64,000 nt of DNA, taken from positions 930,001 through 994,000 of the forward strand of contig NZ_QEOP01000002.1 of the NCBI RefSeq assembly GCF_003097495.1, given 5' to 3'. Within the stretch, counting starts at the first letter, position 1, and every line of letters starts with the position of its first letter. Below, piece by piece: positions 45,844 through 59,554 of this stretch. The stretch is from Amnibacterium flavum (GTDB taxonomy: Bacteria > Actinomycetota > Actinomycetes > Actinomycetales > Microbacteriaceae). A program made the translations under genes and the position numbers. The notes under the pieces were generated by a model. That model had not been told where the DNA came from. It ran no database searches and was given only the letters and a program-made list of their open reading frames with translations.

Positions 45844-45883
45844 GTCGCCAACCTACCGACCGGCGGGACGCCTGCGCGCCGTT

Positions 45884-46591
45884 TCAGTCGTCGAAGCTCT
45901 TGCGGAAGCGGACGGCGGACGCGTCGATGTGCTGGCGCATGGCGAAGGCCGCGTCTCCCGGGTCGCGCAGTCGGATCGCCGTCAGGATCCGCGCATGCTC
46001 GTCGACCGCCAGGGAGGTGATGAGCGCGTGATTCGACAGACGGAAGAGGTGCGCGTGGGTGTGCAGTCGCGAGAGCGCCTCGCGAATGAAGGTGTTGACG
46101 CCCGCGACCGCGATCTGGTCGTGGAACTCGGCGTCGAGCCGCGAGAACTCCGCATAGCTGCGACCGCGGTCGCCGAGGACGGACGCCATCTGCTGCTCCA
46201 ACTGGTCGAGCGATGCCAGTTGCTCGGGGGTGATCTCCTCCGCCGCCCGTCGAGCGGCCGCGGGCTCGAGGAGCTGGCGGATGACGATCAGATCCTCGAA
46301 CTGCGCCCGGGTCATCTTGGGGGCGACTCGGTAGCCCGACAGGTGGTTGCGAACCACGATGCCGTCGGCTGAGAGGCGATGCAGCGCCTCCCGGATCGGG
46401 GTCTGCGACACCCGGAGCTCGCGGGCGAGGGCGTCGATGGTGATGCGGTCGTCGGGGCCGAGTTCGGAGGAGAGCACCCGACCGAGGAGCTCTTCGTAGA
46501 CGGATTCGCCGATGGGGGCTCGCGGATGATCGTCGGGCGCGAGCTCGGGATCGACCGCTGCCTCTGGCGTGCCCTGCGGAGAGAGTTCCAT
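45884..46591 (-). CDS. GntR/FCD-family transcriptional regulator
   Basis: The 235-residue protein has a GntR winged helix (YEELLGRVLSSELGPDDRITIDALARELRVSQTPIREALHRLSADGIV) at residues about 30-80. The FCD effector domain follows, with EFHDQIAVAGVNTFI, LFRLSNHAL and DEHARILTAI, giving metal-binding Asp/His residues. FCD regulators usually respond to carboxylate or sugar-acid metabolites. The ATG at 46591 has GAAGGG upstream. It is divergent from the twelve-gene operon, the usual place for its regulator, and overlaps a candidate operator in its own promoter. Confidence 0.9.
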   Translation of the reverse strand: MELSPQGTPEAAVDPELAPDDHPRAPIGESVYEELLGRVLSSELGPDDRITIDALARELRVSQTPIREALHRLSADGIVVRNHLSGYRVAPKMTRAQFEDLIVIRQLLEPAAARRAAEEITPEQLASLDQLEQQMASVLGDRGRSYAEFSRLDAEFHDQIAVAGVNTFIREALSRLHTHAHLFRLSNHALITSLAVDEHARILTAIRLRDPGDAAFAMRQHIDASAVRFRKSFDD

Positions 46592-46624
46592 CGCGTGCCC
46601 TTCTGCAGACGGAAGAGAGAACCT

Positions 46625-46640
46625 TGCGAATCGTATCGCA
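46625..46640. promoter_or_regulatory. Candidate GntR operator in its own promoter
   Basis: TGCGA (46625-46629) and TCGCA (46636-46640) are inverted with six bases between. Those six bases read TACGAT on the minus strand, a plausible -10 for gntR. A protein on the arms would cover that -10. Related half-sites TTTGCGA occur at 46650-46656 and 46753-46759, the latter inside the operon promoter. Confidence 0.5.
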
Positions 46641-46741
46641 TATCGGTCATTTGCGATCAGATCCGTGACGGACGCCTCCCGTTTGATCCGGATCATTTCG
46701 CGGAGGCGGCTGCAAATATCGACGAATTGCGGGCAGAACGG

Positions 46742-46802
46742 TTGACATGGCGTTTGCGACGCTCGTAAGGTCTCCGTAATCCGATCCGATCTGATCGGAT
46801 TA
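46742..46802 (+). promoter_or_regulatory. Promoter and palindromic operator of the catabolic operon
   Basis: TTGACA (46742-46747), 18 bases, TAAGGT (46766-46771). The expected transcription start falls on a 26-bp palindrome, TAATCCGATC-CGATCT-GATCGGATTA, at 46777-46802. The arms are perfect. Binding here would block initiation or early elongation, so this is a good repressor site, probably for the divergent GntR protein. About 27 bp of leader remain before the GTG at 46830. Confidence 0.75.
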
Positions 46803-46829
46803 CCTCGACCGAAGAAGCTTGGGGCCGCT

Positions 46830-48131
46830 GTGCACTCGTCGTCCATCCTGCCGGGATCCGTCCCGGTGAGCACTCGCCCCATGGGGGAGCTCTTCGCGGC
46901 ACTCCGAGCTCCGAGCGAGATCATCTTCGGCGCGGGTCAGCGCAGCGCCCTGTCGTGGCTCGGCCCGCGACTGGGCACACGCGCCTTCATCTGCGTCGAC
47001 CCCTACTTCGCGACGAGCGAGGAGTTCACCGAACTCGTCGCGCTCGTCGAGACGGCGGGTGTCGCGGCGGCGATCTTCTCCGACGTGGTTCCCGAACTGC
47101 CGACCGACAGCATCCTCGCCGCGGTCGAAGCGGCACGCTCGCACGAGGCCGACCTGTTCATCGCGGTCGGAGGCGGCTCATGCATCGACCTGGCCAAAGT
47201 CGCCGCCTGCCTCCTCGCCCACGGCGGGGACATCGGCGACTACTACGGCGAGTTCCGCGTGCCGGGCCCCATCCTCCCGCTCATCGCGATCCCCACCACG
47301 GCCGGCACCGGCTCGGAGGTGACCCCGGTCGCCGTCATCACCGATCCGCGGCGCGAGACCAAGGTCGGCATCTCCAGCCCCTACCTCATCCCCACCGTCG
47401 CGATCTGCGACCCCGAGCTGACGCTCACCTGCCCTCCGGGCGTGACGGCCAGCGCGGGGGCGGATGCGCTGTCGCACTGCATCGAGTCGTACACGGCGAT
47501 CAGCCGCGAGACCAACTCGGCGCTCGCGGGCGAACGCGTCTTCGTGGGGCGGGGCGAACTCACCGACAGCTTCGCGCTCGCCGGGATCAGCGCGATCGCG
47601 CAGGGCCTGCAGCGGGCCTACACGGATGCCTCGGACCTCGAGGCGCGCGCTCTCGTGATGTACGGCTCGTTGATGGGCGGTCTCGCTTTCGGCACAGCCG
47701 GAACCGCGGCGGCCCACGCCCTGCAGTACCCGATCGGCGCGATGACGCACACCCCGCACGGGGTCGGTGTCGGCATGCTCCTGCCCTACGTCATGGAGTA
47801 CAACCGCGAGGAACGGGTGACGGAGCTCGCGGAGATCGCCCGCCGGTTCGGGGCCGTCGGAGACGACGAGAGCGTCGCCGCACTCGCGCCGCAGCTCGTC
47901 CAGGACTTCCTCGCATCCGTCGGCATCCCGTCGACTCTCGACGCCATCGGATTCCCGACCGATCGTGTCGGTTGGGCCGCGGAGCAGGGGCTGGCGGCCG
48001 TGCGACTCAGCGAGAACAATCCCCGCCCCCTCGCGGACGGCGCCGTCTCCATCCTCGGCGCTGCGGCGATCGGGCGACTCGACGCGGTGCACGAACGCGT
48101 TCATCCGACAGCGAAAGTGGAGAAGGTATGA
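46830..48131 (+). CDS. Iron-containing alcohol dehydrogenase
   Basis: This 433-residue group III alcohol dehydrogenase has APSEIIFGAGQRSAL, FIAVGGGSCIDLAKVAA (NAD loop) and IAIPTTAGTGSEVTPVAV. The iron ligands lie in ICDPELT, GADALSHCIESY and MTHTPHGVGVGMLLPYV. Members include 4-hydroxybutyrate, 1,3-propanediol and maleylacetate reductases, and the substrate cannot be fixed. The partner aldehyde dehydrogenase suggests alcohol to aldehyde to acid oxidation. The GTG at 46830 was used; a GTG at 46866 is also possible. Its stop overlaps the next start by four bases (ATGA). Confidence 0.9.
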   Translation: MHSSSILPGSVPVSTRPMGELFAALRAPSEIIFGAGQRSALSWLGPRLGTRAFICVDPYFATSEEFTELVALVETAGVAAAIFSDVVPELPTDSILAAVEAARSHEADLFIAVGGGSCIDLAKVAACLLAHGGDIGDYYGEFRVPGPILPLIAIPTTAGTGSEVTPVAVITDPRRETKVGISSPYLIPTVAICDPELTLTCPPGVTASAGADALSHCIESYTAISRETNSALAGERVFVGRGELTDSFALAGISAIAQGLQRAYTDASDLEARALVMYGSLMGGLAFGTAGTAAAHALQYPIGAMTHTPHGVGVGMLLPYVMEYNREERVTELAEIARRFGAVGDDESVAALAPQLVQDFLASVGIPSTLDAIGFPTDRVGWAAEQGLAAVRLSENNPRPLADGAVSILGAAAIGRLDAVHERVHPTAKVEKV

Positions 48132-49573
48132 CCCCCGTGCTCGACGGCCTGATCGAGGACATCACCGATGGCCGGCAGACCTCCGACCCATCGGCCCGCG
48201 AGGTCCGAGTCGACAACCCGGCGACCGGCCGGCCGCTCATCAGCCTTGCGGCCGATGACGTCGCCGCCGCGCTGCGGGCCGCCGACCAGGCCTCCGCGGT
48301 CGCCGAGGCCTGGGCCGCCACCTCGGCACGCGAACGCAGCGGGATCCTGATGCGCACCTTCACCACGATGATCGAGCGGCGCGAACTGCTCGCCGACCTG
48401 ATCTCGGCCGAGAACGGCAAATCGCATGCTGACGCGCTGGGCGAGGTCGACTACGCGGCCGAGTACTTCCGCTGGTACGCGGAAGAGGCCGTCAGGATCC
48501 GCGGCGAGGTGTTCGACAGTCCGAACGGGGCGAATCGGGTGCTCGTCACGCACGAGCCCGTTGGACTCTGCCTCCTCATCACCCCGTGGAACTTCCCGGC
48601 CGCCATGGCGACCCGCAAGATCGGACCGGCGATCGCCGCCGGTTGCACGGCGATCCTGAAGCCCGCCTCCGAGACACCGCTCACCGCTCTCGCGATCGCG
48701 GACATCCTCCGCGAGTCCGGACTGCCGGACGGGGTGCTGAACGTCGTCGTCACCGACACGGCGGGCAAAGTCGTCCGAGCCCTCCTCGACGACGGTCGGG
48801 TCCGGATGCTCTCCTTCACCGGGTCGACCGAGGTCGGCCGGATCCTGCTCGCCCAGGCGTCGGAGACGGTCATCAAGACCGCGATGGAGCTCGGCGGCAA
48901 CGCCCCGTTCCTGGTGCTCGACGACGCCGACGTCGACGCCGCACTCGACGGCGCACTCATCGCCAAAATGCGCAACGGCGGCCAGGCCTGCACCGCCGCC
49001 AACCGGTTCTACGTGGCGGACAGCCGGCACGACGAGTTCGTGGAGGGCCTGGTCGAGCGCATGGGCGCCATCACCGTCGGCGACCCGGCGGAGAGCAGCA
49101 CCCAGTGCGGACCCCTGATCAACGCGGAGGCGGTTCGCAAGGCGCAGGAGCTCGTCGACGACGCGCTCTCCCGCGGGGCCCGGCTCGCCCTCGGCGGCGA
49201 GACCCCCGACGGCCCCGGGTCCTTCTACCCGCCGACCGTCCTCGTCGACGTGCCCGCCGACGCGCGGATCCTGCACGAGGAGGTGTTCGGCCCCGTCGCC
49301 CCCGTCGTGCGCTTCACCTCGGACGACGAGGCGCTGGCCGCCGCCAACGACACCGTGCACGGCCTCGTCTCCTACCTCTACACGGGTGACCTGGCCCGCG
49401 GGCTCCGGCTCTCGGCGCGGCTCGAGGCGGGAATGGTCGCGCTCAACCGCGGCCTGGTCTCCGACCCGGCGGCCCCGTTCGGCGGGGTCAAGCAGAGCGG
49501 CCTCGGCCGCGAGGGCTCCCACGAGGGCCTCCACGAATACCTCGAGACGAAGTACGTCGCCACCACCTGGTGA
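48128..49573 (+). CDS. NAD(P)-dependent aldehyde dehydrogenase (succinate-semialdehyde type)
   Basis: The 481-residue enzyme has ITPWNFPAAMATRKIGPAIAAGCTAILKPASETPLTALAI, FTGSTEVGRIL, MELGGNAPFLVLDDADVD (catalytic Glu) and GGQACTAANRFYV (nucleophile Cys). The N-terminal region and length match SSADH/GabD relatives. It would oxidise an aldehyde or semialdehyde formed by the alcohol dehydrogenase before it. The gene is coupled to that gene by an ATGA overlap. Confidence 0.93.
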   Translation: MTPVLDGLIEDITDGRQTSDPSAREVRVDNPATGRPLISLAADDVAAALRAADQASAVAEAWAATSARERSGILMRTFTTMIERRELLADLISAENGKSHADALGEVDYAAEYFRWYAEEAVRIRGEVFDSPNGANRVLVTHEPVGLCLLITPWNFPAAMATRKIGPAIAAGCTAILKPASETPLTALAIADILRESGLPDGVLNVVVTDTAGKVVRALLDDGRVRMLSFTGSTEVGRILLAQASETVIKTAMELGGNAPFLVLDDADVDAALDGALIAKMRNGGQACTAANRFYVADSRHDEFVEGLVERMGAITVGDPAESSTQCGPLINAEAVRKAQELVDDALSRGARLALGGETPDGPGSFYPPTVLVDVPADARILHEEVFGPVAPVVRFTSDDEALAAANDTVHGLVSYLYTGDLARGLRLSARLEAGMVALNRGLVSDPAAPFGGVKQSGLGREGSHEGLHEYLETKYVATTW

Positions 49574-49614
49574 CCGTCCCGACCGCAGATCACCACAAGA
49601 AAGGGAACAACCCC

Positions 49615-50313
49615 ATGGATTACCCCGAGATCGAGAAGCTCTTCGACGGATTGCGCGTCTCCGACGTGCGCGACGGGATGGACTGGATCGGACTCTTCAG
49701 CAAGGGCTCGGTGCACCGCGACATCCGCCCTCTGTTCGAGGGAGCACGCCTCGCGGGCCCGGCCCTGACCGTCCGTCTGACGGCGAGTCAGCGCCAGGCG
49801 CCGTTCATGACCCCCGACGAGTACACCGAGTGGGCTCGTGACTTCTGGTACAAGGAGGTGCACATCGAGCCGTACGCGGAGGAGATCAAGAAGGGCGACG
49901 TCGTCGTCATCGAGGCGCCCGACCAGGGCGTCGGCCAGCTCGGCTCGTGGAACACGCTGAACTTCTACCTCAAGGGCGCCCAGGGCGTCGTCACCTCCGG
50001 TGGAGTGCGCGACACCGACGAGTGCCGCATCCAGAAGGTGCCCGTCTTCGCGCAGTTCATCAACCAGACCATGACGCAGGGCCGGATCGAGTACCTCGAG
50101 CACAACGTGCCCATCACCGTCGGCAACCAGCTCGTCAAGCCCGGCGACATCATCGTCGGCGACGGCGACGGCGTCATCGTCGTGCCCATCGAGCACGTCG
50201 AAGAGGTCGCCAAGTACGCGAGGCAGGAGGCCGAGAACGACAAGCGCGGCCGCCGCCGCATGTACGAGCAGCTGGGCTGGGCCCTCGACGACACGGTCCA
50301 GGTCGACGACTGA
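49615..50313 (+). CDS. RraA-family protein (HMG aldolase-like)
   Basis: The 232-residue protein has the RraA fold: LRVSDVRDGMDWIG, then DVVVIEAPDQGVGQLGSWNTLNFYLKGAQGVVTSGGVRD with the GGVRD motif, then PITVGNQLVKPGDIIVGDGDGVIVVP. The family includes class II pyruvate aldolases (4-hydroxy-4-methyl-2-oxoglutarate/4-carboxy-4-hydroxy-2-oxoadipate aldolase) as well as the RNase E inhibitor RraA. The catabolic context favours an aldolase or lyase. AAGGGAAC precedes the ATG. Confidence 0.88.
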   Translation: MDYPEIEKLFDGLRVSDVRDGMDWIGLFSKGSVHRDIRPLFEGARLAGPALTVRLTASQRQAPFMTPDEYTEWARDFWYKEVHIEPYAEEIKKGDVVVIEAPDQGVGQLGSWNTLNFYLKGAQGVVTSGGVRDTDECRIQKVPVFAQFINQTMTQGRIEYLEHNVPITVGNQLVKPGDIIVGDGDGVIVVPIEHVEEVAKYARQEAENDKRGRRRMYEQLGWALDDTVQVDD

Positions 50314-50372
50314 CGACTGATCGGCTCTGGCCGATCCATCCCCTCACCGTGTCTTTCAAAGGAGAGAGAGCA

Positions 50373-51212
50373 ATGAAAGTGGCCTTCATCGGGCTCGGCG
50401 ACATCGGCCTCCCCATGGCCCGGCATCTCGTCGATGCCGGCTTCGAGGTGGTCGGCGCCGATCTGAACGCCGCACCCCGTCGCTCCCTCGAGAAGCACGG
50501 CGGCACCGTCGTCGACGACGTGGCCGACCTGGGGGACTGCGAGGTGATCTGCATCGCCGTGCCCGACGACGATGCGGTCACCGCGGTCCTCCTGGAATCC
50601 GGCCTCGTGGAGAAGCTCGCGAAAGGGTCAGCGGTGCTGCTGCACAGCACGATCCTCCCGCCGACGGCTCCGCGTCTGGCCGAGGCCGCCGAGACCCACG
50701 GGGTGAGCGTGAACGACGCTCCCGTGAGCGGCGGCGCCGCGCGGGCGGCGACGGGGGAGCTGACCATCATGGTCGGCGGATCGGTCCCCGCGTCGGGACG
50801 CCGCGTGCTCGACGCGCTCGGTTCCGTCGTCGAGGCGGGCCCGGTGGGAAGCGGGTCGGCGCTCAAACTCGCCAACCAGCTGTCGATGCTGGCCTCCCTG
50901 CAGGCGCTGTACGAGGGTCTCGCGCTCGCCACCGAGTTCGGCGTCGACGAGAAGGTCGCGCTCGCGACCCTCGAAGGTTCGACGGGCGACAGCTGGGTCG
51001 CCCGCAACTGGGGCTTCTTCGACGAGCTGGCCCGCAACTACGACGCGAGCGGCACCCCCGTCGAGTTCCGTCCGTGGAGCAAGGACCTCTGGGACATCGT
51101 CGCGACCGGACGCCAGGCGGGCCTGTCCCTGCCGCTCGCTGCGCTCCTGTCGCAGATCCTCGCCACCGCCGTCGAAGACCACGCCCACCACGGCGGAAAG
51201 AAGGAGTCATGA
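50373..51212 (+). CDS. Beta-hydroxyacid dehydrogenase (3-hydroxyisobutyrate/tartronate-semialdehyde type)
   Basis: The 279-residue protein has the NAD(P) motif MKVAFIGLGDIGLPMARHLVDAGFEVVG, the substrate-binding signature VNDAPVSGGAARAATGELTIMVGG and the catalytic Lys in SALKLANQLSM. Family members oxidise or reduce beta-hydroxyacids. GGAGAGAGAG precedes the ATG at 50373. A short GATCGG-CTCTGG-CCGATC inverted repeat sits in the 59-bp gap before it (50319-50336). Its stop overlaps the first permease start (ATGA). Confidence 0.9.
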   Translation: MKVAFIGLGDIGLPMARHLVDAGFEVVGADLNAAPRRSLEKHGGTVVDDVADLGDCEVICIAVPDDDAVTAVLLESGLVEKLAKGSAVLLHSTILPPTAPRLAEAAETHGVSVNDAPVSGGAARAATGELTIMVGGSVPASGRRVLDALGSVVEAGPVGSGSALKLANQLSMLASLQALYEGLALATEFGVDEKVALATLEGSTGDSWVARNWGFFDELARNYDASGTPVEFRPWSKDLWDIVATGRQAGLSLPLAALLSQILATAVEDHAHHGGKKES

Positions 51213-52192
51213 GCCAGCTCGTCGCCGACCTGGTGTCGGTCGAGAACGATGAGGGCGCCGCGCCCGGCGGTCGCGCCATCCCGCCGCGCTCGGCGGCGCA
51301 GAAGCGACGCCGGCGCAAGGAGACGCTCTCCGCCTACGCGTTCCTGTCGCCATGGCTGCTCGGACTGCTCGCCATCGTGCTCGGCCCGATGCTCGCGTCC
51401 CTGTACCTCTCGTTCACCCGCTACGACCTGATCGGCACACCCGAGTTCATCGGGCTCGACAACTACGTGCGGATGCTGTTCGAGGACCCGCGTTTCTACC
51501 GAACCGTCGGCGTGACCGCGATGTACACCCTCATCTCGGTCCCCGCGATCCTGATCTTCTCGCTGCTGCTCGCGATGTTCCTCAACCGGGGCATCCGGTT
51601 CCTCGGCATCTACCGTGCACTCTTCTACCTGCCCTCTCTGCTCGGCGGCAGCGTCGCCATCGCCGTCCTCTGGCTCCAGGTGTTCGGCTCGGAGGGCATC
51701 TTCAACGCCGTGCTCGCGCTGGTGGGGATCGACGGTCCCAGCTGGATCGGCAGCCCGTCCTACGCGCTCCTCACCGTCATCGCACTGAGCGTCTGGACAT
51801 TCGGAAGCACCATGGTGATCTTCCTCGCGGGCCTCCGGCAGATCCCCGACACCTACTACGAGGCGGCCTCCCTCGACGGGGCCAGCAAGTTCCGGCAGTT
51901 CCTGTCGATCACCCTGCCGCACCTCACTCCGGTGATCTTCTTCAACGGGCTGCTCACCATCGTCAACGCCCTGCAGTCCTTCACCCCCGCCTACGTGATC
52001 AGCGGCGGAACCGGCCAGCCGGCCGACTCCCTCCTGCTCTACACCGTCTACCTCTACCTGCGCGGCTTCGTCGACTTCCAGATGGGCTACGCCTCGGCGC
52101 TCGCCTGGGGTCTCCTCCTCGCGCTCGCCGCCATCACCGCACTTCTGTTCTGGAGCACCCGCTTCTGGGTCTTCTACGGGGAGGACTCATGA
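51209..52192 (+). CDS. Sugar ABC transporter permease (MalF/UgpA type)
   Basis: The 327-residue inner-membrane protein has six spans after a cytoplasmic N-terminus (SAYAFLSPWLLGLLAIVLGP). The EAA loop EAASLDGASKFRQFLSITLPHLTPV contacts the ATPase. It pairs with the next permease to form the translocation channel. Overlaps of four bases with both neighbours show tight coupling. No ATPase gene is present in the operon, so a shared MsiK-type ATPase encoded elsewhere is probably used. Confidence 0.92.
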   Translation: MSQLVADLVSVENDEGAAPGGRAIPPRSAAQKRRRRKETLSAYAFLSPWLLGLLAIVLGPMLASLYLSFTRYDLIGTPEFIGLDNYVRMLFEDPRFYRTVGVTAMYTLISVPAILIFSLLLAMFLNRGIRFLGIYRALFYLPSLLGGSVAIAVLWLQVFGSEGIFNAVLALVGIDGPSWIGSPSYALLTVIALSVWTFGSTMVIFLAGLRQIPDTYYEAASLDGASKFRQFLSITLPHLTPVIFFNGLLTIVNALQSFTPAYVISGGTGQPADSLLLYTVYLYLRGFVDFQMGYASALAWGLLLALAAITALLFWSTRFWVFYGEDS

Positions 52193-53127
52193 CCACCACA
52201 CCGGCTGCTCGCATCTCACCCGACCTGCTCGAACCCTCCGGCAGTCGCGGTCGCCGGCGCAGGGGCGGGCTGTTCATGCCCCGACGAGCGACCAACAGCC
52301 GCCTCCTCGCCGGATGGGCCCGACACGCGATCACGATCGCCGTGCTCGTCGTCATGCTCTATCCGGTGGTGTGGATGATCGACGCCTCCTTCAAACCCGA
52401 CGCGCAGATCGGCTCGACGCTCCTCCCGTTCCAGGGCCCGTTCACCCTCGAGAACTACGCCGATGGGCTCAACCCGACCTCGACATTGAACTTCGGTCTC
52501 TACTTCTTCAACTCGTTCGTGCTGGCGATCCTCGCGGTCATCGGCAACGTCGTGGCCTGCACCCTCACCGGGTACGCCTTCGCCCGACTGAACTTCCCGT
52601 TCAAGAAGACGCTGTTCGCGGTGCTGATGGGCACGCTCCTGCTGCCGTATCAGGTGACGATCGTTCCGCAGTACATCCTGTTCAACGAACTCGGCTGGCT
52701 GAACACCTACCTGCCGCTCGTCGTCCCGAAGTTCCTCGCCACCGACGCGTTCTTCGTGTTCCTCACCGTCCAGTTCATCCGCGGCCTGCCGCGCGAGCTC
52801 GACGAGGCCGCCCGCCTCGACGGAGCGGGCGACTGGGGGATCTTCCGCCGCATCATCGTCCCTCTCCTGGGGCCGGCGATCGCAACCACGGCGATGTTCA
52901 CCTTCATCGCCACCTGGAACGACTTCCTCGGGCCGCGGCTCTACCTGAGCAACACCGCGCTCTACACGGTGCCGCAGGGCCTGGTGCAGTTCGTCGACTC
53001 GACCGGCCAATCCTCGATCGGCACCCTCTTCGCCATGGCGACCCTCTCCATCACGCCGCTCGTCGGGTTCTTCCTGGCCTCGCAGCGGCTGCTGACCCAG
53101 GGCATCGCCACCACCGGACTCAAATGA
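52189..53127 (+). CDS. Sugar ABC transporter permease (MalG/UgpE type)
   Basis: The 312-residue protein has an N-terminal basic extension, then TM1 HAITIAVLVVMLYPVVWMIDASFKP, and the EAA loop EAARLDGAGDWGIFRRIIVPLLGP. A C-terminal SQRLLTQGIATTGLK is typical of MalG-type permeases. It completes the heterodimer with the upstream permease. Start overlap: ATGA with the previous stop. Confidence 0.92.
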   Translation: MTTTPAARISPDLLEPSGSRGRRRRGGLFMPRRATNSRLLAGWARHAITIAVLVVMLYPVVWMIDASFKPDAQIGSTLLPFQGPFTLENYADGLNPTSTLNFGLYFFNSFVLAILAVIGNVVACTLTGYAFARLNFPFKKTLFAVLMGTLLLPYQVTIVPQYILFNELGWLNTYLPLVVPKFLATDAFFVFLTVQFIRGLPRELDEAARLDGAGDWGIFRRIIVPLLGPAIATTAMFTFIATWNDFLGPRLYLSNTALYTVPQGLVQFVDSTGQSSIGTLFAMATLSITPLVGFFLASQRLLTQGIATTGLK

Positions 53128-53164
53128 CTCACGACACAGCACAAAGAAACGAAATGGAGATGAC

Positions 53165-54484
53165 ATGAACAGATCCCGCACCATGACGATGGCGTCGGCG
53201 GCGATCATCGCCGTCCTCGGCCTGAGCGCCTGCGCAGGAGGCGGAGGAGGCGGCGGCGAGACCACCGCACCCGAGGCCGAGATCGGTGGAGAGATCCAGT
53301 ACGCCTGGTGGGGAGGTCCGGCCCGCAACGAGAAGACGCAGGCGGTGATCGACCTCTACCAGGAGGCCAACCCCGAGGTGACCGTGCAGGGCACGACGGC
53401 CGAGTTCGCCGCGTACTTCGAGCAGGCGACCGTGCAGGCCGCCGGCAAGAACCTGCCCTGCGTTCCGCAGATGCAGAACCGCCTCATGGCCGACTACGCG
53501 GATCGCGGGGCCCTCATGCCCCTCGACGACCTTGTCGACTCCGGCGCGATCGACGTGTCGAACATCCCCGAGTCCGTGCTCGAGAGCGGTCGCGGAAGCG
53601 ACGGCAACCTCTACATGATCCCCTACGGCGCTGCCTTCGGTTCGATGATCGTCAACACCACGCAGGTCGAAGCGGCGGGTCTCGACCTGCCGCCGGAGGG
53701 TTACGACTGGGATTGGCTGGCCGAATGGGGCGCCGACCTCACGAAGGCTCAGGGCAAGCCCTCCCTCGACCTGGTGCGCAGCCAGACCGATTCGCTCGAA
53801 GCCTGGATGCGCAGCCACGGCAAGGACCTGTACGAGGACGGGCAGCTCGGATTCGACGAGGGCGACCTGGTCGACTTCTGGGACTACGTCACCGACCTCC
53901 AGGACTCGGGCGTCGCCATCCCGGCGGAGACCGCGTCGGAGCAGAACTCGCTGCCGCTCGAACAGCTCGGCGTGAGCACCGGCAACCAGGCGACGGTCGT
54001 CTGGCCCGCGAACGGTCTCGGAACCGCTCAGGCGACCATCGACGCGGCAGCGCCCGGCAACACCCTGGCGACGTACCCGCTTCCGACAGGTCCTGACGGC
54101 TACGGCAACGCCTTCTGGGTATCCGGTCTGGCGATCTCGGCCAACTGCAGCAACGTCCCGACCGCGGCATCGTTCATCGACTTCTTCGTCAACGATCCGG
54201 AGGCTGCCACCGTGTACGCCTCCGACAACGGCGCGAACGTCAACACCGAGAACCTGCAGCTGATCCTCGACGACGAGGCGACGACACCGGCCAAGAAGGC
54301 GGAGCTCGAGCTCTACGCATTCGTCGCCGACCAGGATGTCGCCCCCGCCGTCTACGGCAAGGGCTACGCGAGCATCTTCCAGCAGAACCTGCCCCGGTTC
54401 TACCAGCAGGTGGCATTCGGCGAGCTCAGCTCGAAGGAAGCGGCGAAGCAGTTCATCCAGGAAGCCGAAGCAGTACTCGGCTGA
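53165..54484 (+). CDS. Carbohydrate ABC transporter substrate-binding lipoprotein
   Basis: The 439-residue protein has a lipoprotein signal (TMASAAIIAVLGLSAC, lipobox LSAC), a Gly-rich linker (GGGGGGG), and the cluster B/family 1 extracellular binding-protein fold: IQYAWWGGPARNEKTQAVIDLYQEANPEVTVQ, then LYMIPYGAAFGSMIVNTTQVEAAGL. It captures the substrate outside the membrane and delivers it to the two permeases encoded before it. The ligand is unknown; the Trp/Tyr-rich front segment resembles sugar binders. A strong stem-loop follows the gene. Confidence 0.92.
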   Translation: MNRSRTMTMASAAIIAVLGLSACAGGGGGGGETTAPEAEIGGEIQYAWWGGPARNEKTQAVIDLYQEANPEVTVQGTTAEFAAYFEQATVQAAGKNLPCVPQMQNRLMADYADRGALMPLDDLVDSGAIDVSNIPESVLESGRGSDGNLYMIPYGAAFGSMIVNTTQVEAAGLDLPPEGYDWDWLAEWGADLTKAQGKPSLDLVRSQTDSLEAWMRSHGKDLYEDGQLGFDEGDLVDFWDYVTDLQDSGVAIPAETASEQNSLPLEQLGVSTGNQATVVWPANGLGTAQATIDAAAPGNTLATYPLPTGPDGYGNAFWVSGLAISANCSNVPTAASFIDFFVNDPEAATVYASDNGANVNTENLQLILDDEATTPAKKAELELYAFVADQDVAPAVYGKGYASIFQQNLPRFYQQVAFGELSSKEAAKQFIQEAEAVLG

Positions 54485-54489
54485 TCATC

Positions 54490-54533
54490 CCCGAGGGGCG
54501 GGATGCGGCGCGTGCCGCACCCCGCCCCTCGGG
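54490..54533 (+). terminator. Long stem-loop after the binding-protein gene
   Basis: The 20-base arms (54490-54509 and 54514-54533, beginning CCCGAGGGGCGGG) pair with a single mismatch around a GCGT loop, starting 6 bp after the SBP stop. No T-run follows and the operon continues 60 bp later, so it is best read as a partial terminator or a 3'-end stabiliser that raises binding-protein mRNA over the downstream genes. Confidence 0.8.
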
Positions 54534-54593
54534 CCGTCCGTCATCCGCCGCCCTGACCCGGGCCGGCACCCCGTCTCGACCAGGAAGTTCGAC

Positions 54594-55760
54594 ATGGACC
54601 CCCAGGCCCTCCAAGGAATGCGCGTCATCGACCTCACACAGGTGATGGCGGGACCGTTCTCGACCATGCTCCTCGCCGACCTCGGCGCCGACGTCATCAA
54701 GGTCGAGCCGCCCGGCGGGGGAGACCAGACCCGGCATTCCTGGGGCCGATCGGGCAAGGGCGACGACGGGCCCGCCTTCTTCGCGCTCAACCGCAACAAG
54801 AGGAGCGTCGTGCTCGACCTGCGCAGCGAGGGCGGCAAGGCCGACTTCCTCGCACTCATCGCCGACGCCGACGTCCTCATCGAGAACTACCGTCCCGGGG
54901 TGACCGACCGGCTCGGAATCGATTACGAGACCCTCCGCGCCATCAACCCCGGCCTCATCTACGCGAGCATCTCGGGCTTCGGCCAGACCGGCCCCTACTC
55001 GCAGCGCGCCGGCTACGACCTCATCGCCCAGGGAATGACCGGCGTGATGAGCATCACGGGCACACCCGGCGGAGCGCCCGTGAAGGCGGGCGTGCCCGTC
55101 GCCGATCTCGGCGCGGGACTGTTCAGCGTCTACGGCATCCTCGCCGCCTACATCCACAAGCTGCGCACGGGTGAGGGCCAACGTCTCGAGACCTCCCTGT
55201 ACGAGGCGGCCATCGCGCTGTCGGTCTGGGAAGCCACCGAGTACTGGGCGAGCGGCCAGGTGCCGAAGGCGACCGGCTCGTTCCACCGGATGTCCGCGCC
55301 CTACGGCGCCTACCGGACCGCTGACGGCCACATCACGATCGGTGCGAACAACCAGCGACTCTGGGGGTTCCTCACCGCTGCTCTCGGCCATCCCGAGCTC
55401 GAGCACGACGAGAGGTTCGCGACCAACCCGCTGCGCATGCGCAACCGCAATGAGCTCACGGGCGTGATCGAGAGCATCCTCGCGGGCCACGACTCCCAGT
55501 ACTGGGTCGACACCCTGCTCGCCGGAGGAGTGCCCGCCGGCCCGATCCTCGCCTACGACGAGGTGCTCGCCGACCCGCACGCCCAGTACCGCGAGATGGT
55601 GCAGACCATCCCGCATCCGGTCGAGGGCGAGGTCAAGACGCTCGGCTTCCCGGTCAAGTTCGGCCGGACGCCGGCACGCACCCACCGTCACCCTCCGCTC
55701 CTCGGCGAGCATCAGGAGGAGCTGCTGTCGAAGACGGACGCCGACACGGGGAAGCGATGA
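54594..55760 (+). CDS. CaiB/BaiF family CoA-transferase
   Basis: The 388-residue class III CoA-transferase has LQGMRVIDLTQVMAGPFSTMLLADLGADVIKVEPPGGGD, LNRNKRSVVLDLRSEGG, and LIENYRPGVTDRLGIDYETL with YASISGFGQTGP. A catalytic Asp is expected in AGVPVADLGAGLF. It moves CoA between acids; donor and acceptor are unknown. The start at 54594 follows AGGAAG. Coupled to the enoyl-CoA hydratase gene by ATGA. Confidence 0.92.
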   Translation: MDPQALQGMRVIDLTQVMAGPFSTMLLADLGADVIKVEPPGGGDQTRHSWGRSGKGDDGPAFFALNRNKRSVVLDLRSEGGKADFLALIADADVLIENYRPGVTDRLGIDYETLRAINPGLIYASISGFGQTGPYSQRAGYDLIAQGMTGVMSITGTPGGAPVKAGVPVADLGAGLFSVYGILAAYIHKLRTGEGQRLETSLYEAAIALSVWEATEYWASGQVPKATGSFHRMSAPYGAYRTADGHITIGANNQRLWGFLTAALGHPELEHDERFATNPLRMRNRNELTGVIESILAGHDSQYWVDTLLAGGVPAGPILAYDEVLADPHAQYREMVQTIPHPVEGEVKTLGFPVKFGRTPARTHRHPPLLGEHQEELLSKTDADTGKR

Positions 55761-56560
55761 CCGGGCAGGTCCTCCGCAGCCGCGACGACGGAGTCGTCAC
55801 ATTCACCCTGTCGCAGCCGGAGCGGCGCAATGCGATCTCGTTCGAGATGTACGACCGGCTCGAGGACGAGTTCGCGGCGATCGCCGCGGACGACACCGTG
55901 CGGGCCCTCGTCCTGCGCGGCGCGGCCGGATCCTTCGCCGGCGGCACCGACATCCGTCACCTCGCCGACATCCACGACGGATCCGCCGGCGTCGAGTACG
56001 AGGCCCATATGCGCCGAGTGCAGAAGGGGCTCATCGACCTGCGGATCCCCGTCGTCTCCGTCGTCGAGGGCGCCTGCGTCGGAGGCGGTCTCGTCTTCGC
56101 GGCCCTCAGCGACCTCGTCTACTGCACACCGGATGCGAGATTCGGCACCCCGATCGCCCGCACGCTCGGCAACACCATCTCGGCGACCTCGTTGGCACGA
56201 CTGCAGGAGACCTTCGGGCGGCGTCGGACCGCCGAGATGCTCCTGACGGGCCGACTCCTCACCGCCGATGAGGCGGAGCGAGCCGGATTCGTCACCGCCG
56301 TGCTCGGCGGCGCGGCGCTCGAGGCGCGGCTCGGCGAGACCCTGCAGGCGATCTCGCAGTGCTCACCCGAGTCGATCTGGTCGTTCAAGGAGCTCGAGCG
56401 CCGGATCGACGCCCATCTCTCGACCGTCGAAGTCGACGACGTCTTCGCCCGGATCTACGGGGGGCGGCAGTTCCGCGAGGGGGTCGCGGCATTCCTCGGC
56501 AAACGGGCCGCGCGATTCGTCACCGACGCGCCGGCCGAGCCGGACGGGGGAGGACGATGA
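55757..56560 (+). CDS. Enoyl-CoA hydratase/isomerase family protein
   Basis: The 267-residue crotonase-fold protein has FTLSQPERRNAISFEMYDRLEDEF, then FAGGTDIRHLADIH, then GACVGGGLVFAALSDLVYCTPDARFGTPIARTLGN. These give the CoA-binding and oxyanion-hole segments. The usual catalytic Glu pair cannot be assigned with certainty (a Glu lies in VEGACVGGG). It may hydrate, isomerise or hydrolyse the CoA ester made by the preceding transferase. Overlaps its neighbours by four bases on each side. Confidence 0.88.
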   Translation: MTGQVLRSRDDGVVTFTLSQPERRNAISFEMYDRLEDEFAAIAADDTVRALVLRGAAGSFAGGTDIRHLADIHDGSAGVEYEAHMRRVQKGLIDLRIPVVSVVEGACVGGGLVFAALSDLVYCTPDARFGTPIARTLGNTISATSLARLQETFGRRRTAEMLLTGRLLTADEAERAGFVTAVLGGAALEARLGETLQAISQCSPESIWSFKELERRIDAHLSTVEVDDVFARIYGGRQFREGVAAFLGKRAARFVTDAPAEPDGGGR

Positions 56561-57477
56561 GCGCGAACGCGGCGATCGACTCCCACCATCACCTCTGGCC
56601 CAGTTCCGTGATCGGCCGTCAGGACTGGCGTCCCGCCGATGACGACGCCATCGACCGCGCTTTCGAGACCGCGGAATTCGCCGAGCTGCGCCGGTCGACG
56701 GGTGTCGACGGAAGCGTCCTCATGCAGTCGGTCGACGACGCGGACGAGAACGATCGGCTGTTCGCCTACGCGGCCGCGGATCCCGGCATCGTCGGCGTCG
56801 TCGGCTGGGCCCCGCTGAACAGGCCGGTCGAGGCGCGGGGCGTGATCGACGCGCTCCTGTCATCGAACGGCGATGTCGCCGGGGCGGAACGACTCTCAGG
56901 GGTCCGCTGCCTCATCGGCCGCGACGACATCGACTGGGCGCTCGAACCCGAGGGCCTCGCTCTGTTCCGCTCGATCGCCGCAGCCGGGCTCGCGTGGGAC
57001 GTCGTGCCGATCACCGCCGAACAGCGTCGGACGGTCGCTCGCCTGGCCGAACAGGTCCCCGCGCTGCGCATCGTCATCGACCATCTCGGAGCGCCGCCCC
57101 TCGATGGCGGATGGGACGCCTGGTGCTCGGCACTCGGCGACATCGCGCAGGCCGACAACGCCGCGATCAAGCTCTCGGTCGGCGTCGCGGTGCTCTCCGC
57201 CATGCCGCGCTGGGACCGCGGGTTCGTGGCCACCGCGTTCGGGCATGCGCTCGACGTGTTCGGTCCCGAGAGGGCCATGCTCGGCAGCAACTGGCCCGTC
57301 GTCCTCCTCCGCACGGAGTACGGGTCCGCCTGGAGCGACGCGGACGCCGCCGTCGCGGGTCTCCTCGACGGCGACGACCTCCGCCGCGTTCGCGGCGGCA
57401 CGGCGTCCGACTGGTACGGGCTCGACCTTCCAGCGGCCGGACCCGTGTCACCCCAGGAGAGACAGGAGCAACTGTGA
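56557..57477 (+). CDS. COG3618 amidohydrolase (lactonase type)
   Basis: The 306-residue protein has the amidohydrolase_2 pattern: IDSHHHLWP near the start, VVGWAPLNRP, VRCLIGRDD, and IVIDHLGAPP with a later metal His. The C-terminal motif reads LGSNWPVVL, with Asn where many relatives have Asp. COG3618 enzymes hydrolyse lactones such as L-fucono- and 2-pyrone-4,6-dicarboxylate lactones. It suits the two Gfo/Idh dehydrogenases that follow, which would form lactones. Coupled at both ends (ATGA, GTGA). Confidence 0.9.
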   Translation: MSANAAIDSHHHLWPSSVIGRQDWRPADDDAIDRAFETAEFAELRRSTGVDGSVLMQSVDDADENDRLFAYAAADPGIVGVVGWAPLNRPVEARGVIDALLSSNGDVAGAERLSGVRCLIGRDDIDWALEPEGLALFRSIAAAGLAWDVVPITAEQRRTVARLAEQVPALRIVIDHLGAPPLDGGWDAWCSALGDIAQADNAAIKLSVGVAVLSAMPRWDRGFVATAFGHALDVFGPERAMLGSNWPVVLLRTEYGSAWSDADAAVAGLLDGDDLRRVRGGTASDWYGLDLPAAGPVSPQERQEQL

Positions 57478-58526
57478 ACAGACCTCTGCGAGTCGGACTC
57501 GTCGGGACGGGATGGGTGGCCCATCAGCACGTCGCCGGGTACCGCTCGGTCGCCGACGGGGTGATCGACGTCGTGGCCGCCTGCGATCCCCGTGCCGACG
57601 TGCTCGCCGACTTCGCCGACCGCTACACGATCGAGCGCCGCTTCCCCGATGCGACGAGCATGATCGCGTCGGGCGAGATCGACGCCGTCGTCCTGCTCAC
57701 CCCGCCGTCCGTTCGCGACGAGGTCATCTTCCCCGCCATGGAGGCCGGGGTGCACCTGCTCATCGAGAAGCCGTTCGCGACGACCGGCGGCGACGCGGTG
57801 CGCTACGTCGAGGCGGCCGAGCAGGCGGGCATCACCCTCGCCGTCAGCCAGAACTTCCGGTGGTTCCCGGAGTACGTGTGGCTGAAGGAACGTCTGGCGC
57901 GACCCGACGCGGGCACACCTCGGTATCTCGAGGCCCGCAGCTTCCAGAATCGGCCGCAGGCACCGGGGGTGTGGAGGGCGACCGAGCGGAAGCTCGAGAT
58001 GGCGATCTTCAGCGTGCATCTCATCGACCGCCTCCAGTGGCTGGCGGCGGCGCATCCGGTCACGGTGAGCGCGATCACCCGCCCCGGCTTCGACGAGTCC
58101 ATCCCGGGCGAGCAGTTCACGACGCTCACCGTGGAGTTCGAGGGCGGTCCGGTCGCTCGGATTACGTCGTCCTGGACGAGCCTCGCGCTTCCGGTCCAGG
58201 ACGCCCGCGTCGACACGGAGATCGGCTCCGCCGCGGTCGGTCGGGTGCACCCGATGGCGGGTGAATCGTGGGGGAGGGCGCAGTTCGGCGACGGGTCGGA
58301 CGAAGTCGCCTTCGCCGACGACGACGCGGATCCCCAGATGGCGCGGAGCTACGGCTTCAGCGGACGCGAGTTCGCCGAAGCGGTACGGGAGGGCCGCCAG
58401 CCCGCACACAGCGGACGCGACAACCTGAAGACGATGGGCATCATGGAGGCCGCGTACCTGTCGGCCGATCGGGGCGGGGAGCCGGTGGCGGTCGCCGAGG
58501 CGCTCGCCACGGCGGCGCACGCGTGA
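57474..58526 (+). CDS. Gfo/Idh/MocA family oxidoreductase 1
   Basis: The 350-residue protein has the NAD(P) Rossmann motif LRVGLVGTGWVAHQHVAGY, the family signature VHLLIEKPFATTGGDAVRYV (catalytic EKP), and FRWFPEYVWLKERLA with a beta-sheet C-terminal domain. Family members oxidise sugars, inositols or related alcohols. The GTG at 57474 overlaps the lactonase stop, and its own stop overlaps the next dehydrogenase. Confidence 0.92.
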   Translation: MNRPLRVGLVGTGWVAHQHVAGYRSVADGVIDVVAACDPRADVLADFADRYTIERRFPDATSMIASGEIDAVVLLTPPSVRDEVIFPAMEAGVHLLIEKPFATTGGDAVRYVEAAEQAGITLAVSQNFRWFPEYVWLKERLARPDAGTPRYLEARSFQNRPQAPGVWRATERKLEMAIFSVHLIDRLQWLAAAHPVTVSAITRPGFDESIPGEQFTTLTVEFEGGPVARITSSWTSLALPVQDARVDTEIGSAAVGRVHPMAGESWGRAQFGDGSDEVAFADDDADPQMARSYGFSGREFAEAVREGRQPAHSGRDNLKTMGIMEAAYLSADRGGEPVAVAEALATAAHA

Positions 58527-59554
58527 GTGAACAGCTCGGCGTCGCCCTGATCGGAGCCGGCAACAGTGGCGGTCACTACCACCTGCCCCACCTCCTGAAC
58601 CATCCCGGGTTCCGCCTCCGCACGGTCGCGACCCGGTCGGGCACGGTCGGTCCCGAGCTTCCCGACGCCGTCACGGTGGTGTCGGACTGGCGTTCTGCGA
58701 TCTCGGATCCCTCGATCGACCTCGTCGTGGTCGCCCTGCCGCATGATCTGCACCATCCGGTTGCACTCGCCGCTCTCGATGCCGGGCGGCACGTCCTCGT
58801 CGAGAAGCCGATCACGGTCACGGGCGACGAGGCTCGCGAGCTCGAGGCCGCCGCGAACCGTTCAGGCGTCGTGCTCGCCGCGCACCACCAGCGCCGATTC
58901 GAGGCGGACTTCGTCGCTCTCACCGAGGTGGTGCGCTCAGGAGAGCTCGGAGAGATCTGGCGGATCGTCGTGACACGGAGCCATCAGGGCCGTTACCGCG
59001 AGAGCACGCCGACGCGGCCCCACGTGGGCTCCGCCTCACTCGGCTGGGCCCACGCCAGAGCCAGCGGGGGCGGGATCGCACGGGTCATCGCCCCGCATTC
59101 CGTCGACCAGCTGCTCACCCTTGCCGACGACGGTGTCGATCGCGTCTCGGGTCGAGCACACCTCGATCCCGTCGACGACGTCGAGGACTGGGTGGCCATC
59201 GACATCGACTTCGCCTCCGGGATCACGGGCACCGTCGAGGCGTTCCGGCGGAGCCGGATCGCGCCCGCCCGCTTCACCGTCTACGGAAGTGCGGGCACGG
59301 CGGTCGCGACGGACGGCACCGAGCTGCGGATCACGACCGATGACGGCGACCGGGTCATCGACGGTCTCGAGCCGCCGGGCACCATGGGGCGGGAGATCTA
59401 CGACGACCTCTTCGCCGCCGTCACTCGTGGGGCGCCGCTGCGGGCGAGCCTCGCCGACGCCATCCGGGTGGTCGATGTGATCGAGGCGGCGGAGACGTCG
59501 TTCAGGGGCGCGAACTCGTGGGTCAGCGCGTCGTCAGGCGGAGGAAGCCACTGA
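58523..59554 (+). CDS. Gfo/Idh/MocA family oxidoreductase 2
   Basis: The 343-residue protein has GVALIGAGNSGGHYHLPHL, then HVLVEKPITVTGDEARELEAAANRSGV, then LAAHHQRRFEADFVALTEVV. It shares fold but little sequence with the preceding dehydrogenase, so the pair is not a recent duplication. Both are probably NAD(P)-dependent sugar or polyol oxidases of the same pathway. It ends 31 bases inside the end of the convergent nuclease-helicase gene. Confidence 0.92.
   Translation: MSEQLGVALIGAGNSGGHYHLPHLLNHPGFRLRTVATRSGTVGPELPDAVTVVSDWRSAISDPSIDLVVVALPHDLHHPVALAALDAGRHVLVEKPITVTGDEARELEAAANRSGVVLAAHHQRRFEADFVALTEVVRSGELGEIWRIVVTRSHQGRYRESTPTRPHVGSASLGWAHARASGGGIARVIAPHSVDQLLTLADDGVDRVSGRAHLDPVDDVEDWVAIDIDFASGITGTVEAFRRSRIAPARFTVYGSAGTAVATDGTELRITTDDGDRVIDGLEPPGTMGREIYDDLFAAVTRGAPLRASLADAIRVVDVIEAAETSFRGANSWVSASSGGGSH

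Follow-up and report, generated by a model that had tools for sequence, protein, structure and literature searches.

Which compound does an operon serve that joins sugar uptake to several dehydrogenases, an RraA-type aldolase and CoA-ester chemistry? We asked this of a locus of Amnibacterium flavum that lies in a window of 64,000 nucleotides of contig NZ_QEOP01000002.1 (positions 930,001 to 994,000). The original prediction of twelve tightly coupled genes with seven ATGA/GTGA overlaps was confirmed on both counts by Pfam searches and inspection of start codons. The twelve genes, on the plus strand from 46881 to 59554, form one operon preceded by a divergent gene for a GntR/FCD regulator (Table 1). 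The 4-nt overlaps join the genes for the iron-containing alcohol dehydrogenase (Fe-ADH) and aldehyde dehydrogenase (ALDH), the 3-hydroxyisobutyrate dehydrogenase family protein (HIBDH) and permease 1, permeases 1 and 2, the CoA-transferase (CoAT) and crotonase, the crotonase and amidohydrolase, the amidohydrolase and Gfo/Idh 1, and Gfo/Idh 1 and 2. An eighth, between ALDH and RraA, exists only if RraA uses an upstream GTG start at 49570; the start in Table 1 is more likely. The operon had been predicted to begin at 46830. The operon itself holds, and comparison with the Microbacterium yannicii sequence makes the ATG at 46881 the more likely first codon of Fe-ADH. A long, G+C-rich hairpin lies in the 109-nt gap between the binding protein and CoAT genes, and the fold of 54478-54600 has a z of -4.66, with none of 200 shuffles equally stable, suggesting that transcript levels of the two operon halves may differ.

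Table 1. Features of the catabolic locus, in window coordinates
Feature	Position	Strand	Basis and remarks
GntR/FCD regulator	45884..46591	-	Pfam GntR and FCD
Putative promoter	46742..46771	+	TTGACA (46742-46747), 18 nt, TAAGGT; by eye
Operator-like perfect palindrome	46776..46803		GTAATCCGATC-6-GATCGGATTAC; 11-bp arms, 6-nt spacer
Fe-ADH	46881..48131	+	PF00465; alternative GTG start 46830
ALDH	48128..49573	+	PF00171; nearest to succinate-semialdehyde type
RraA, class II pyruvate aldolase candidate	49615..50313	+	PF03737; lineage A
HIBDH (3-hydroxyisobutyrate/tartronate-semialdehyde/threonate dehydrogenase family)	50373..51212	+	PF03446 and PF14833
ABC sugar permease 1	51209..52192	+	PF00528
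ABC sugar permease 2	52189..53127	+	PF00528
Solute-binding lipoprotein	53165..54484	+	PF01547; nearest solved YesO (5z6b, E 3.9e-26)
Hairpin	54490..54533	+
CoAT, family III (CaiB/BaiF)	54594..55760	+	PF02515 (3.8e-136)
Crotonase, PIARTLGN type	55757..56560	+	PF00378 (6.4e-36); both catalytic Glu absent
Amidohydro_2 protein, COG3618-like	56557..57477	+	PF04909
Gfo/Idh/MocA dehydrogenase 1	57474..58526	+	PF01408
Gfo/Idh/MocA dehydrogenase 2	58523..59554	+	PF01408

The divergent GntR/FCD protein is probably a local repressor. A GntR-type gene is present in 15 of 16 related loci described below; the L038 sequence ends short upstream. A shared promoter and a palindromic operator had been proposed, and the palindrome stood. 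It is the sole such site in the 3.57-Mb genome when up to three mismatches are allowed, and no perfect copy occurs in the M. yannicii intergenic stretch. The putative promoter was recognised by eye, and a sigma-70 consensus scan of 45800-59800 reported no site, this TTGACA included; a TTGACA likewise lies upstream of Fe-ADH in M. yannicii.

The predicted sugar-type uptake and oxidation chemistry are both supported by the domain calls. The ABC ATPase is encoded outside the operon, with UgpC-like candidates elsewhere in the genome (best G000:C1:407728-408789, 47%). This make-up, a binding protein and two permeases with a distant ATPase, is that of a sugar importer of what we take to be the CUT1 class. 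When ten operon proteins were scanned against NCBIfam, none reached any cut-off among the models listed. Fe-ADH fell below all 16 of its listed cut-offs; its best match was ErcA, and a lactaldehyde reductase model also matched. ALDH matched succinate-semialdehyde dehydrogenase best (TIGR01780, 543.6 bits, cut-off 646.35) and a lactaldehyde dehydrogenase model as well. The nearest solved relative of HIBDH is tartronate semialdehyde reductase (1vpd). Pfam found no enolase-type or other sugar-acid dehydratase among the twelve genes, as had been predicted, nor a thiolase, beta-keto acid cleavage enzyme or ring-cleavage dioxygenase.

CoA chemistry had been called unexpected for a sugar-acid route, and our results agree. 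The CoAT is nearest to the succinyl-CoA:dicarboxylate type (9br6, E 1e-84) and scored 333.1 bits against succinate--glutarate CoA-transferase NF052585 (cut-off 750). The Asp of its (V/I/G)-A/G-D-L-G motif is invariant (15/15), as in family III, and presumably corresponds to catalytic Asp169 of formyl-CoA transferase. The usual catalytic glutamates are E144 and E164 in rat ECH. Excerpts of PMC9007349 name E144 and Q162. In the operon crotonase and its relatives neither place holds Glu (16/16 proteins and 5/5 further ones, 21/21 aligned), a feature new here. The PF00378 match places the protein in the crotonase family and the oxyanion-hole glycines (G-x-G) are conserved; it scored 237.6 bits against the PRK06144 enoyl-CoA hydratase subfamily (NF004796, cut-off 272). 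One host paralogue (L118) has Glu at both places, and another (L117), which we read as MenB, is Glu-less. Of 29 loci outside the window with Glu-less crotonases, from 394 genomes of the class, 8 hold a CoAT gene no more than roughly 1.5 kb away, 1 of them together with the amidohydrolase. Losing these residues is thus no mark of the proposed pathway alone.

The amidohydrolase is probably a lactone or ester hydrolase. Its sole NCBIfam match was L-fuconolactonase (NF052480, 92.6 bits, cut-off 400), and the HxH motif near the N-terminus is kept in 14/14 aligned proteins. The Asp of the SDWP motif, which we take to be the beta-8 Asp of COG3618 lactonases, is present in solved relatives (GSDWPV in 4dlf) whereas it is Asn in the same 14 proteins and in 3/3 further ones (17/17), also new here; 6uvz, with no function assigned, likewise carries Asn. 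The original labels of lactonase and crotonase are weakened as statements of function because key catalytic residues differ in all members aligned.

Gene-neighbourhood comparison showed an eight-gene core to be conserved and the full set of twelve to be whole in M. yannicii alone, where all genes and the divergent GntR gene occur in the same order at 49-82% identity. Partial conservation, which the original prediction had named as a ground for its refutation, thus applies to the full set and not to the core. Among 16 related loci chosen for holding CoAT and crotonase, the amidohydrolase occurs in 16, HIBDH and RraA in 15 each, an FAH-family protein in 10 and Fe-ADH in 2. CoAT, crotonase and amidohydrolase are parts of the conserved core and no odd extras. 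The core is common to a Devosia MAG and a Microvirga ossetica plasmid. Gfo/Idh, Fe-ADH and ALDH are missing from most of these loci and make up a variable part; an FAH-type protein and a 2-hydroxyacid dehydrogenase mostly stand where the host has Fe-ADH and ALDH. The second solved match of the FAH protein is 2-keto-3-deoxy-D-arabinonate dehydratase, and the host encodes a homologue outside the operon (C2:627904-629058). RraA is absent from a Roseinatronobacter locus (20.7-kb stretch), so with the variable genes in mind the twelve may not be one linear pathway. The operon is accessory: of the genomes compared, host included, 1 of 9 in the genus and 6 of 299 in the family have its RraA orthologue.

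Loci were also retrieved by RraA and the best 33 of 80 (L037-L069) compared. Crotonase and amidohydrolase share the locus in all 10 actinobacterial cases and CoAT is present in 9, the tenth being a 5-kb contig; 22 of the 33 had no CoAT match in the stretch examined, some being short contigs, and these 22 include the Bacillota and Anaerolineae loci closest to lineage A. The Bacillota and Anaerolineae operons L039, L043, L047 and L128 (RraA-HIBDH-RraA2-Ldh_2 with a sugar ABC transporter) include the closest lineage A relatives, with HIBDH and related permeases, and L039, L043 and L128 have Fe-ADH and ALDH; L047 is the exception in having a lineage B RraA. Unlike our operon, these four have no CoAT, crotonase or amidohydrolase match.

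The RraA itself, a lyase in the original prediction, is upheld as a putative one by PF03737. R132-D133-x-x-E136 is invariant (6/6), and the first motif position is Ser111 (6/6). Mazurkewich in 2014 reportedly gave the aldolase motif as G-X20-R-D-X2-E/D or D-X20-R-D. Excerpts of PMC5065237 mention two motifs. The protein matches CHA aldolase models (90.6 bits against a ligK cut-off of 304.5) and is a candidate metal-dependent aldolase acting on 2-oxo-4-hydroxy acids. Two distant RraA lineages (A and B) occur upon one gene set, also new here, which fits exchange of a cleavage module. Constraining actinobacterial CoAT- or crotonase-linked RraAs to one clade cost 77 log units (AU p 5e-5), and the CoAT and permease of Cellulomonas (lineage A) group with those of Pseudokineococcus (lineage B; 98/98 and 96/98). 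A single clade of the three lineage A loci in the CoAT tree was not rejected (p 0.079). The clades in these tests were named post hoc, from trees already inspected. RraA modules have thus apparently been exchanged, as far as these trees suggest.

We favor, at about 70%, the reading that the operon is induced by its substrate, serves the breakdown of one sugar or sugar acid, and is built of a chassis (transporter, HIBDH, CoAT, crotonase and amidohydrolase) and an exchangeable module of RraA and downstream enzymes. The binding protein and permeases would import the compound with a shared ATPase encoded elsewhere, Gfo/Idh enzymes would oxidise it to a lactone or keto-sugar and the amidohydrolase would open this to an acid. 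The CoAT, which keeps the presumed catalytic Asp, would load the acid with CoA, drawn for instance from succinyl-CoA. Because the Glu pair is absent, the crotonase would perform enolate-type elimination, cleavage or rearrangement of the thioester, not ordinary hydration. HIBDH would oxidise or reduce a hydroxy-acid intermediate, RraA, given its largely conserved motif, would split a 2-oxo-4-hydroxy acid into pyruvate and a second product, an aldehyde or oxo acid, and ALDH and Fe-ADH would oxidise or reduce the aldehyde. This exact order is quite doubtful. Only tentatively do we suggest an undescribed CoA-dependent sugar-acid pathway across Actinomycetota and Alphaproteobacteria, in which a family III CoAT and a Glu-less crotonase replace a sugar-acid dehydratase or thiolase on a chassis with interchangeable RraA modules. 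In the literature searched we found no published pathway matching the gene set, so that this part of the original prediction stands.

Some crotonases, BadI and 6-oxocamphor hydrolase among them, catalyse retro-Claisen reactions. A CoA-dependent retro-Claisen route, in which HIBDH yields a 3-oxo sugar acid, CoAT its 3-oxoacyl-CoA and the crotonase cleaves hydrolytically in place of the cleavage enzyme or thiolase of deoxyribonate catabolism, agrees with the loss of both Glu, as in L117. 3-Keto-deoxyribonate routes are published in PMC6365646, one CoA-bound and proposed for Klebsiella michiganensis, which is also a precedent for the CoA steps of the reading favored above. In the excerpted text, that route resembles ours in a sugar acid carried as CoA thioester, a clustered CoA-transferase and oxidation before cleavage, and the Pseudomonas version includes a lactonase. 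It differs in a CoA-synthetase, hydroxyacyl-CoA dehydrogenase, thiolase and glycerate kinase, and the excerpts name no RraA, crotonase or Gfo/Idh; the term ABC transporter is absent from the article text. Gene content does not discriminate here because no thiolase-type partner is needed, but the 3-oxo intermediate is a supposition and RraA is left unexplained; we consider this unlikely. Non-phosphorylative oxidation of a pentose or an L-fucose- or L-rhamnose-like deoxyhexose by a Gfo/Idh dehydrogenase and the fuconolactonase-like enzyme, with RraA as 2-keto-3-deoxy-acid aldolase, oxidation and reduction of the aldehyde, and CoAT and crotonase acting on a side fragment, would fit the fuconolactonase match, the lactaldehyde models (best for neither Fe-ADH nor ALDH) and the relatives' FAH protein. 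Excerpts of PMC6336799 describe FAH-superfamily KDP dehydratases, a precedent, in pathways that share a dehydrogenase, lactonase and 2-keto-3-deoxy intermediate with this scheme; they use an acid-sugar dehydratase, unlike our operon, and have no CoA steps, the article text containing neither CoA nor RraA as a term. The operon has no such dehydratase, model scores are far below cut-offs and SDWP carries Asn. CoAT and crotonase are unlikely side genes because both belong to the core, and we regard the scheme as rather improbable.

A modified sugar, a sugar acid and an aromatic-linked glycoside had been suggested as substrates; all are still candidates, though gene content lends an aromatic route, such as one like protocatechuate/gallate 4,5-cleavage, little support. 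We take LigC, LigI and LigK to be Gfo/Idh, Amidohydro_2 and RraA proteins, so three families agree in name and RraA matches CHA aldolase models, but the twelve genes include no ring-cleavage dioxygenase, the importer is sugar-type, the PDC hydrolase 2ffi matched the amidohydrolase at only E 0.016 and the ligK score is low; this is extremely unlikely. Scarcely more probable is a branched saccharinic acid such as glucoisosaccharinate lactone, handled by lactone opening, terminal oxidation by Fe-ADH and ALDH, C2 oxidation and RraA cleavage to pyruvate and hydroxypyruvate. RraA fits a tertiary 4-hydroxy-2-oxo acid chemically and relatives include a 2-hydroxyacid dehydrogenase, but the argument is chemical, CoAT and crotonase are unexplained and the literature searched held no such cluster.

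Should the proposed working of the chassis prove right, sugar-acid catabolism would gain a route through CoA thioesters. The chassis would also help to assign PIARTLGN crotonases, Asn-type COG3618-like amidohydrolases and an RraA subgroup, none of which the scanned curated models name specifically, and the operator, regulator and binding protein would be ready tools in the search for its substrate. Comparison of the apparently exchanged RraA modules would offer a handle on which intermediate connects chassis and cleavage.

The 3.57-Mb genome of A. flavum (13 contigs) contains twelve genes that are predicted to encode, in order, an iron-containing alcohol dehydrogenase (Fe-ADH), an aldehyde dehydrogenase (ALDH), an RraA-like aldolase, a 3-hydroxyisobutyrate-dehydrogenase-family enzyme (HIBDH), two ABC permeases, a solute-binding lipoprotein, a family III CoA-transferase (CoAT), a crotonase, an Amidohydro_2 protein that we take to be of the COG3618 type, and two Gfo/Idh dehydrogenases (Gfo1 and Gfo2). 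Seven adjoining gene pairs overlap by four bases, and a GntR/FCD regulator gene identified with Pfam is divergent from the operon. The original prediction of an operon with overlapping genes and a palindromic operator-like site was thus confirmed by Pfam, start codons, and repeat searches. The palindrome is the sole such site in the window and, allowing up to three mismatches, in the genome. Because it is unique in both, this suggests that it is a putative site of a local regulator. No perfect copy was found in the intergenic stretch of the Microbacterium yannicii locus (L037). The hairpin within the operon may shape transcript levels. Scanning the window for Rfam families and tRNA genes gave no matches.

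Features of the operon and its surroundings
Feature	Position	Strand	Remarks
Twelve-gene operon	46881-59554	+	Pfam, start-codon inspection
Perfect 11-bp inverted repeat	46776-46803		directly downstream of TTGACA
Near-perfect G+C-rich hairpin	54490-54533		19 pairs and one internal mismatch; between binding-protein and CoAT genes
Overlap of Gfo2 with end of convergent frame	59523-59554		32 nt; 1218-codon frame with helicase/RNase H-like domains (Pfam)
Class III aminotransferase gene	44491-45843		adjoins the GntR gene; meets the PRK07046 cut-off
Copies of CTTCGACAGGCTCAG	44319-44399, 44121-44135, 40003-40017		three at 33-nt spacing

Two other features lie on the regulator side of the operon. The aminotransferase has no match in the best 33 of at least 80 loci retrieved with RraA. 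The repeat CTTCGACAGGCTCAG occurs five times in the window at up to two mismatches versus 0.2 copies expected and looks like a REP-type element.

Among 299 genomes of the family, its own included, near full-length RraA matches with 37-39% identity occur in five others (G023, G021, G254, G199, G085), and all remaining matches are partial or much weaker. HIBDH, CoAT, crotonase, and amidohydrolase neighbor RraA in all five; the transporter is nearby in four, and around RraA of the fifth, G254, permeases match at only 24-30%. Within the genus, RraA is found at E ≤ 1e-30 in one of nine genomes, its own. The six RraAs were aligned and the alignment was used to scan named genomes, which yielded at least 80 loci; the best 33 (L037-L069) were annotated with the window proteins. 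L050 and G023, which are equal in length, appear to be one contig. Ten of these best 33 are actinobacterial; crotonase and amidohydrolase share the locus in all ten and CoAT is present in nine, the tenth (L066) being a 5-kb contig. No CoAT match was found in the stretch compared at 22 other loci of the best 33, several of which are short contigs. All twelve genes recur in unchanged order in M. yannicii, together with a divergent GntR gene; an uncultured Pseudokineococcus genome (L069) keeps the order from RraA through Gfo2 without Fe-ADH and ALDH; and in a Devosia MAG (L052) the core is split over two divergent units. Chance adjacency was rejected given the conservation of the sets and their order across genera. 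The operon is real, conserved, accessory, and catabolic, with a chemistry that is without a name. As side observations, M. yannicii has another binding-protein gene directly after Gfo2, which is convergent and encodes a protein with 58% identity (L037 19789-20661), and a D-lactate dehydrogenase frame adjoins the Devosia core, a product hint that was set aside since it occurs at one locus only.

We tabulated gene presence at 16 loci picked for CoAT and crotonase. FAH, an FAH-family protein encoded in relatives' loci, and Fe-ADH never occur together (0/16). Clustering of frames from these loci gave no recurrent families beyond those named, with clusters mixing genes and shadow frames. To look for a substrate hint, we picked 19 proteins by hand from the flanks or accessory genes of related loci and searched them with Pfam; one, from Streptomyces (L053), is glycosidase-like and of the GDE/MGH1 type.

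Presence of genes at 16 loci picked for CoAT and crotonase
Gene	Loci	Remarks
CoAT, crotonase	16/16 each	by selection
Amidohydrolase	16/16	three of a more distant type
HIBDH	15/16	L038 cut there; three at merely 29-30%
RraA	15/16
GntR-type regulator	15/16
First permease	15/16	three at 24-40% identity
Binding protein	12/16
FAH	10/16
2-Hydroxyacid dehydrogenase	9/16	one at merely 32%
ALDH	4/16
Fe-ADH	2/16
Gfo1	2/16

Comparison of the nine enzymes and the binding protein with NCBIfam showed that none of these ten reached a curated cut-off among the matches listed (25 of 45 families for ALDH and 25 of 68 for crotonase). For the binding protein there was no NCBIfam match at all, and among solved structures it is closest to YesO (E 3.9e-26). 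The closest matches are succinyl-CoA:dicarboxylate transferases for CoAT, and tartronate semialdehyde reductase and L-threonate dehydrogenase for HIBDH.

Several of these enzymes have unusual catalytic residues. The crotonase has Glu at neither enoyl-CoA hydratase position in all 16 aligned sequences and five further proteobacterial ones, a count of 21/21 that leaves out six distant crotonases without the signature P-I/V-A-R-T-L/I/V-G-N, which is otherwise in place with minor variants. In a control comparison of L117-L121 that consisted of alignments only, host paralog L118 has Glu at both positions and L117, read as MenB, at neither. Crotonase matches at E ≤ 1e-55 occur in 28 of 394 genomes of the class, its own included. 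At 29 crotonase loci outside the window, the signature is present in 23, CoAT lies within ~1.5 kb in eight, and amidohydrolase is there too in one; the six crotonases without the signature are more ordinary and three of them (L161, L163, L164) have the first Glu. Glu loss is therefore shared by a wider subfamily. The amidohydrolase reads SNWPV, SNFPV, or SNYPV versus SDWP in 4dlf and 2ffi, the Asp of which is presumably the beta-8 Asp of the amidohydrolase superfamily. Asn occupies this position in 14/14 aligned and 3/3 further proteins linked to the set, among which a second, unlinked amidohydrolase of L129 with Asp at the comparable place was not counted, and 6uvz likewise has Asn. RraA retains R-D-x-x-E in 6/6, and the first position of the motif is occupied by Ser. 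Most RraA homologs carry one of two motifs, according to PMC5065237.

Named pathways were weighed against this gene set. An aromatic 4,5-cleavage route was rejected given an operon with no dioxygenase and weak scores, as was a plain L-fucose route given that there is no dehydratase and scores fall far under the cut-offs. For an apiose/apionate route we found no usable literature support, and for an isosaccharinate route the literature search gave no matching gene cluster. Demethoxylation of 4-O-methylglucuronate through a CoA ester is a chemical idea only. We recognized no publication describing this gene set in the literature searched, which did not extend to subscription papers and preprints, and the pathway could be described in these. 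A clue to the chemistry comes from FAH of the relatives, which is closest to 9kkt (an FAH-family structure with no function named; E 6e-126) and next, among solved matches, to 2q18, a 2-keto-3-deoxy-D-arabinonate dehydratase (E 9e-21). FAH-superfamily enzymes of Herbaspirillum convert 2-keto-3-deoxypentonate to alpha-ketoglutaric semialdehyde by dehydration, as stated in PMC6336799. This points to a putative 2-keto-3-deoxy acid near the RraA step. FAH is absent from the window operon. A host homolog (58%, one in-frame TGA) is located ~348 kb away in another neighborhood (G000:C2:627904-629058, or ~10405-11559 of L124), near an aldo/keto reductase and frames that by eye resemble SDR and Gfo/Idh proteins.

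The transporter, HIBDH, CoAT, crotonase, and amidohydrolase form a chassis that is associated with two far-apart RraA lineages. The RraA tree has 41 rows, without L050 (an apparent duplicate of G023/L032) and L049 (a stop in the aligned segment). Clade A (100/97) contains the RraAs of the window, M. yannicii, and Cellulomonas; beside it are seven Bacillota, Anaerolineae, and plasmid RraAs with no CoAT in the stretches compared. Clade B (17 rows) contains the other 14 CoAT- or crotonase-linked RraAs and three from Anaerolineae/Latescibacterota with no CoAT match. The linkage label needs three changes on this tree, and a single clade of the 15 actinobacterial linked RraAs was rejected on a 28-row tree (77 log units, p 5e-5). 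The CoAT and permease of Cellulomonas, in contrast, join those of Pseudokineococcus, a genome with a clade B RraA, with support of 98/98 and 96/98. Forcing the window, M. yannicii, and Cellulomonas together was rejected for the permease (p 0.006) and not for CoAT (p 0.079), in tests whose clades were named after the trees had been seen and on trees carrying a warning of long-branch meeting. Clade A RraA occurs with Fe-ADH and ALDH at 3/3 loci, the window included, and clade B RraA often with FAH and a 2-hydroxyacid dehydrogenase.

Other RraA arrangements were seen. A Bacillota operon (L039 9992-19865, L043 6205-19916, L128 10968-22678) encodes two RraAs, HIBDH, Ldh_2, Fe-ADH, ALDH, RpiB, and sugar ABC proteins, and in L043 adjoins an SBD_N/NBD_C kinase and PdxA. 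In family loci L008-L031, the RraA match mostly lies within a frame of ~500-790 codons (L022 excepted) with an ALDH match nearby; these are perhaps FAH-RraA fusions (PRK12764-like) of a separate system.

Of 72,556 plasmid records, RraA matched six at E ≤ 1e-15 and crotonase matched 511; we inspected seven regions. The Microvirga ossetica plasmid encodes GntR, divided from HIBDH, amidohydrolase, RraA, a binding protein, two permeases, UgpC, CoAT, and crotonase. The Roseinatronobacter plasmid encodes HIBDH with amidohydrolase, GntR, and CoAT with crotonase as separate groups, together with a TRAP transporter and RpiB; RraA is absent from this region. On the Microvirga lotononidis plasmid, RraA is ~6 kb from crotonase. 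The full core is absent at the Rhizobium and Mesobacillus RraA matches and at the Comamonadaceae, Azospirillum, and Caballeronia crotonase matches.

In our working model, the chassis probably imports a sugar-derived compound, converts it to an acid, and activates this with CoA, and would then rearrange, eliminate, or cleave the activated acid. RraA would next yield pyruvate together with an aldehyde or oxo acid, the latter to be finished by the variable dehydrogenases. Subject to the limits of the tree tests, the simplest reading is that the cleavage module, RraA with its downstream enzymes, has been exchanged on a shared chassis. The operon is probably a sugar-acid catabolic cluster with CoA steps.
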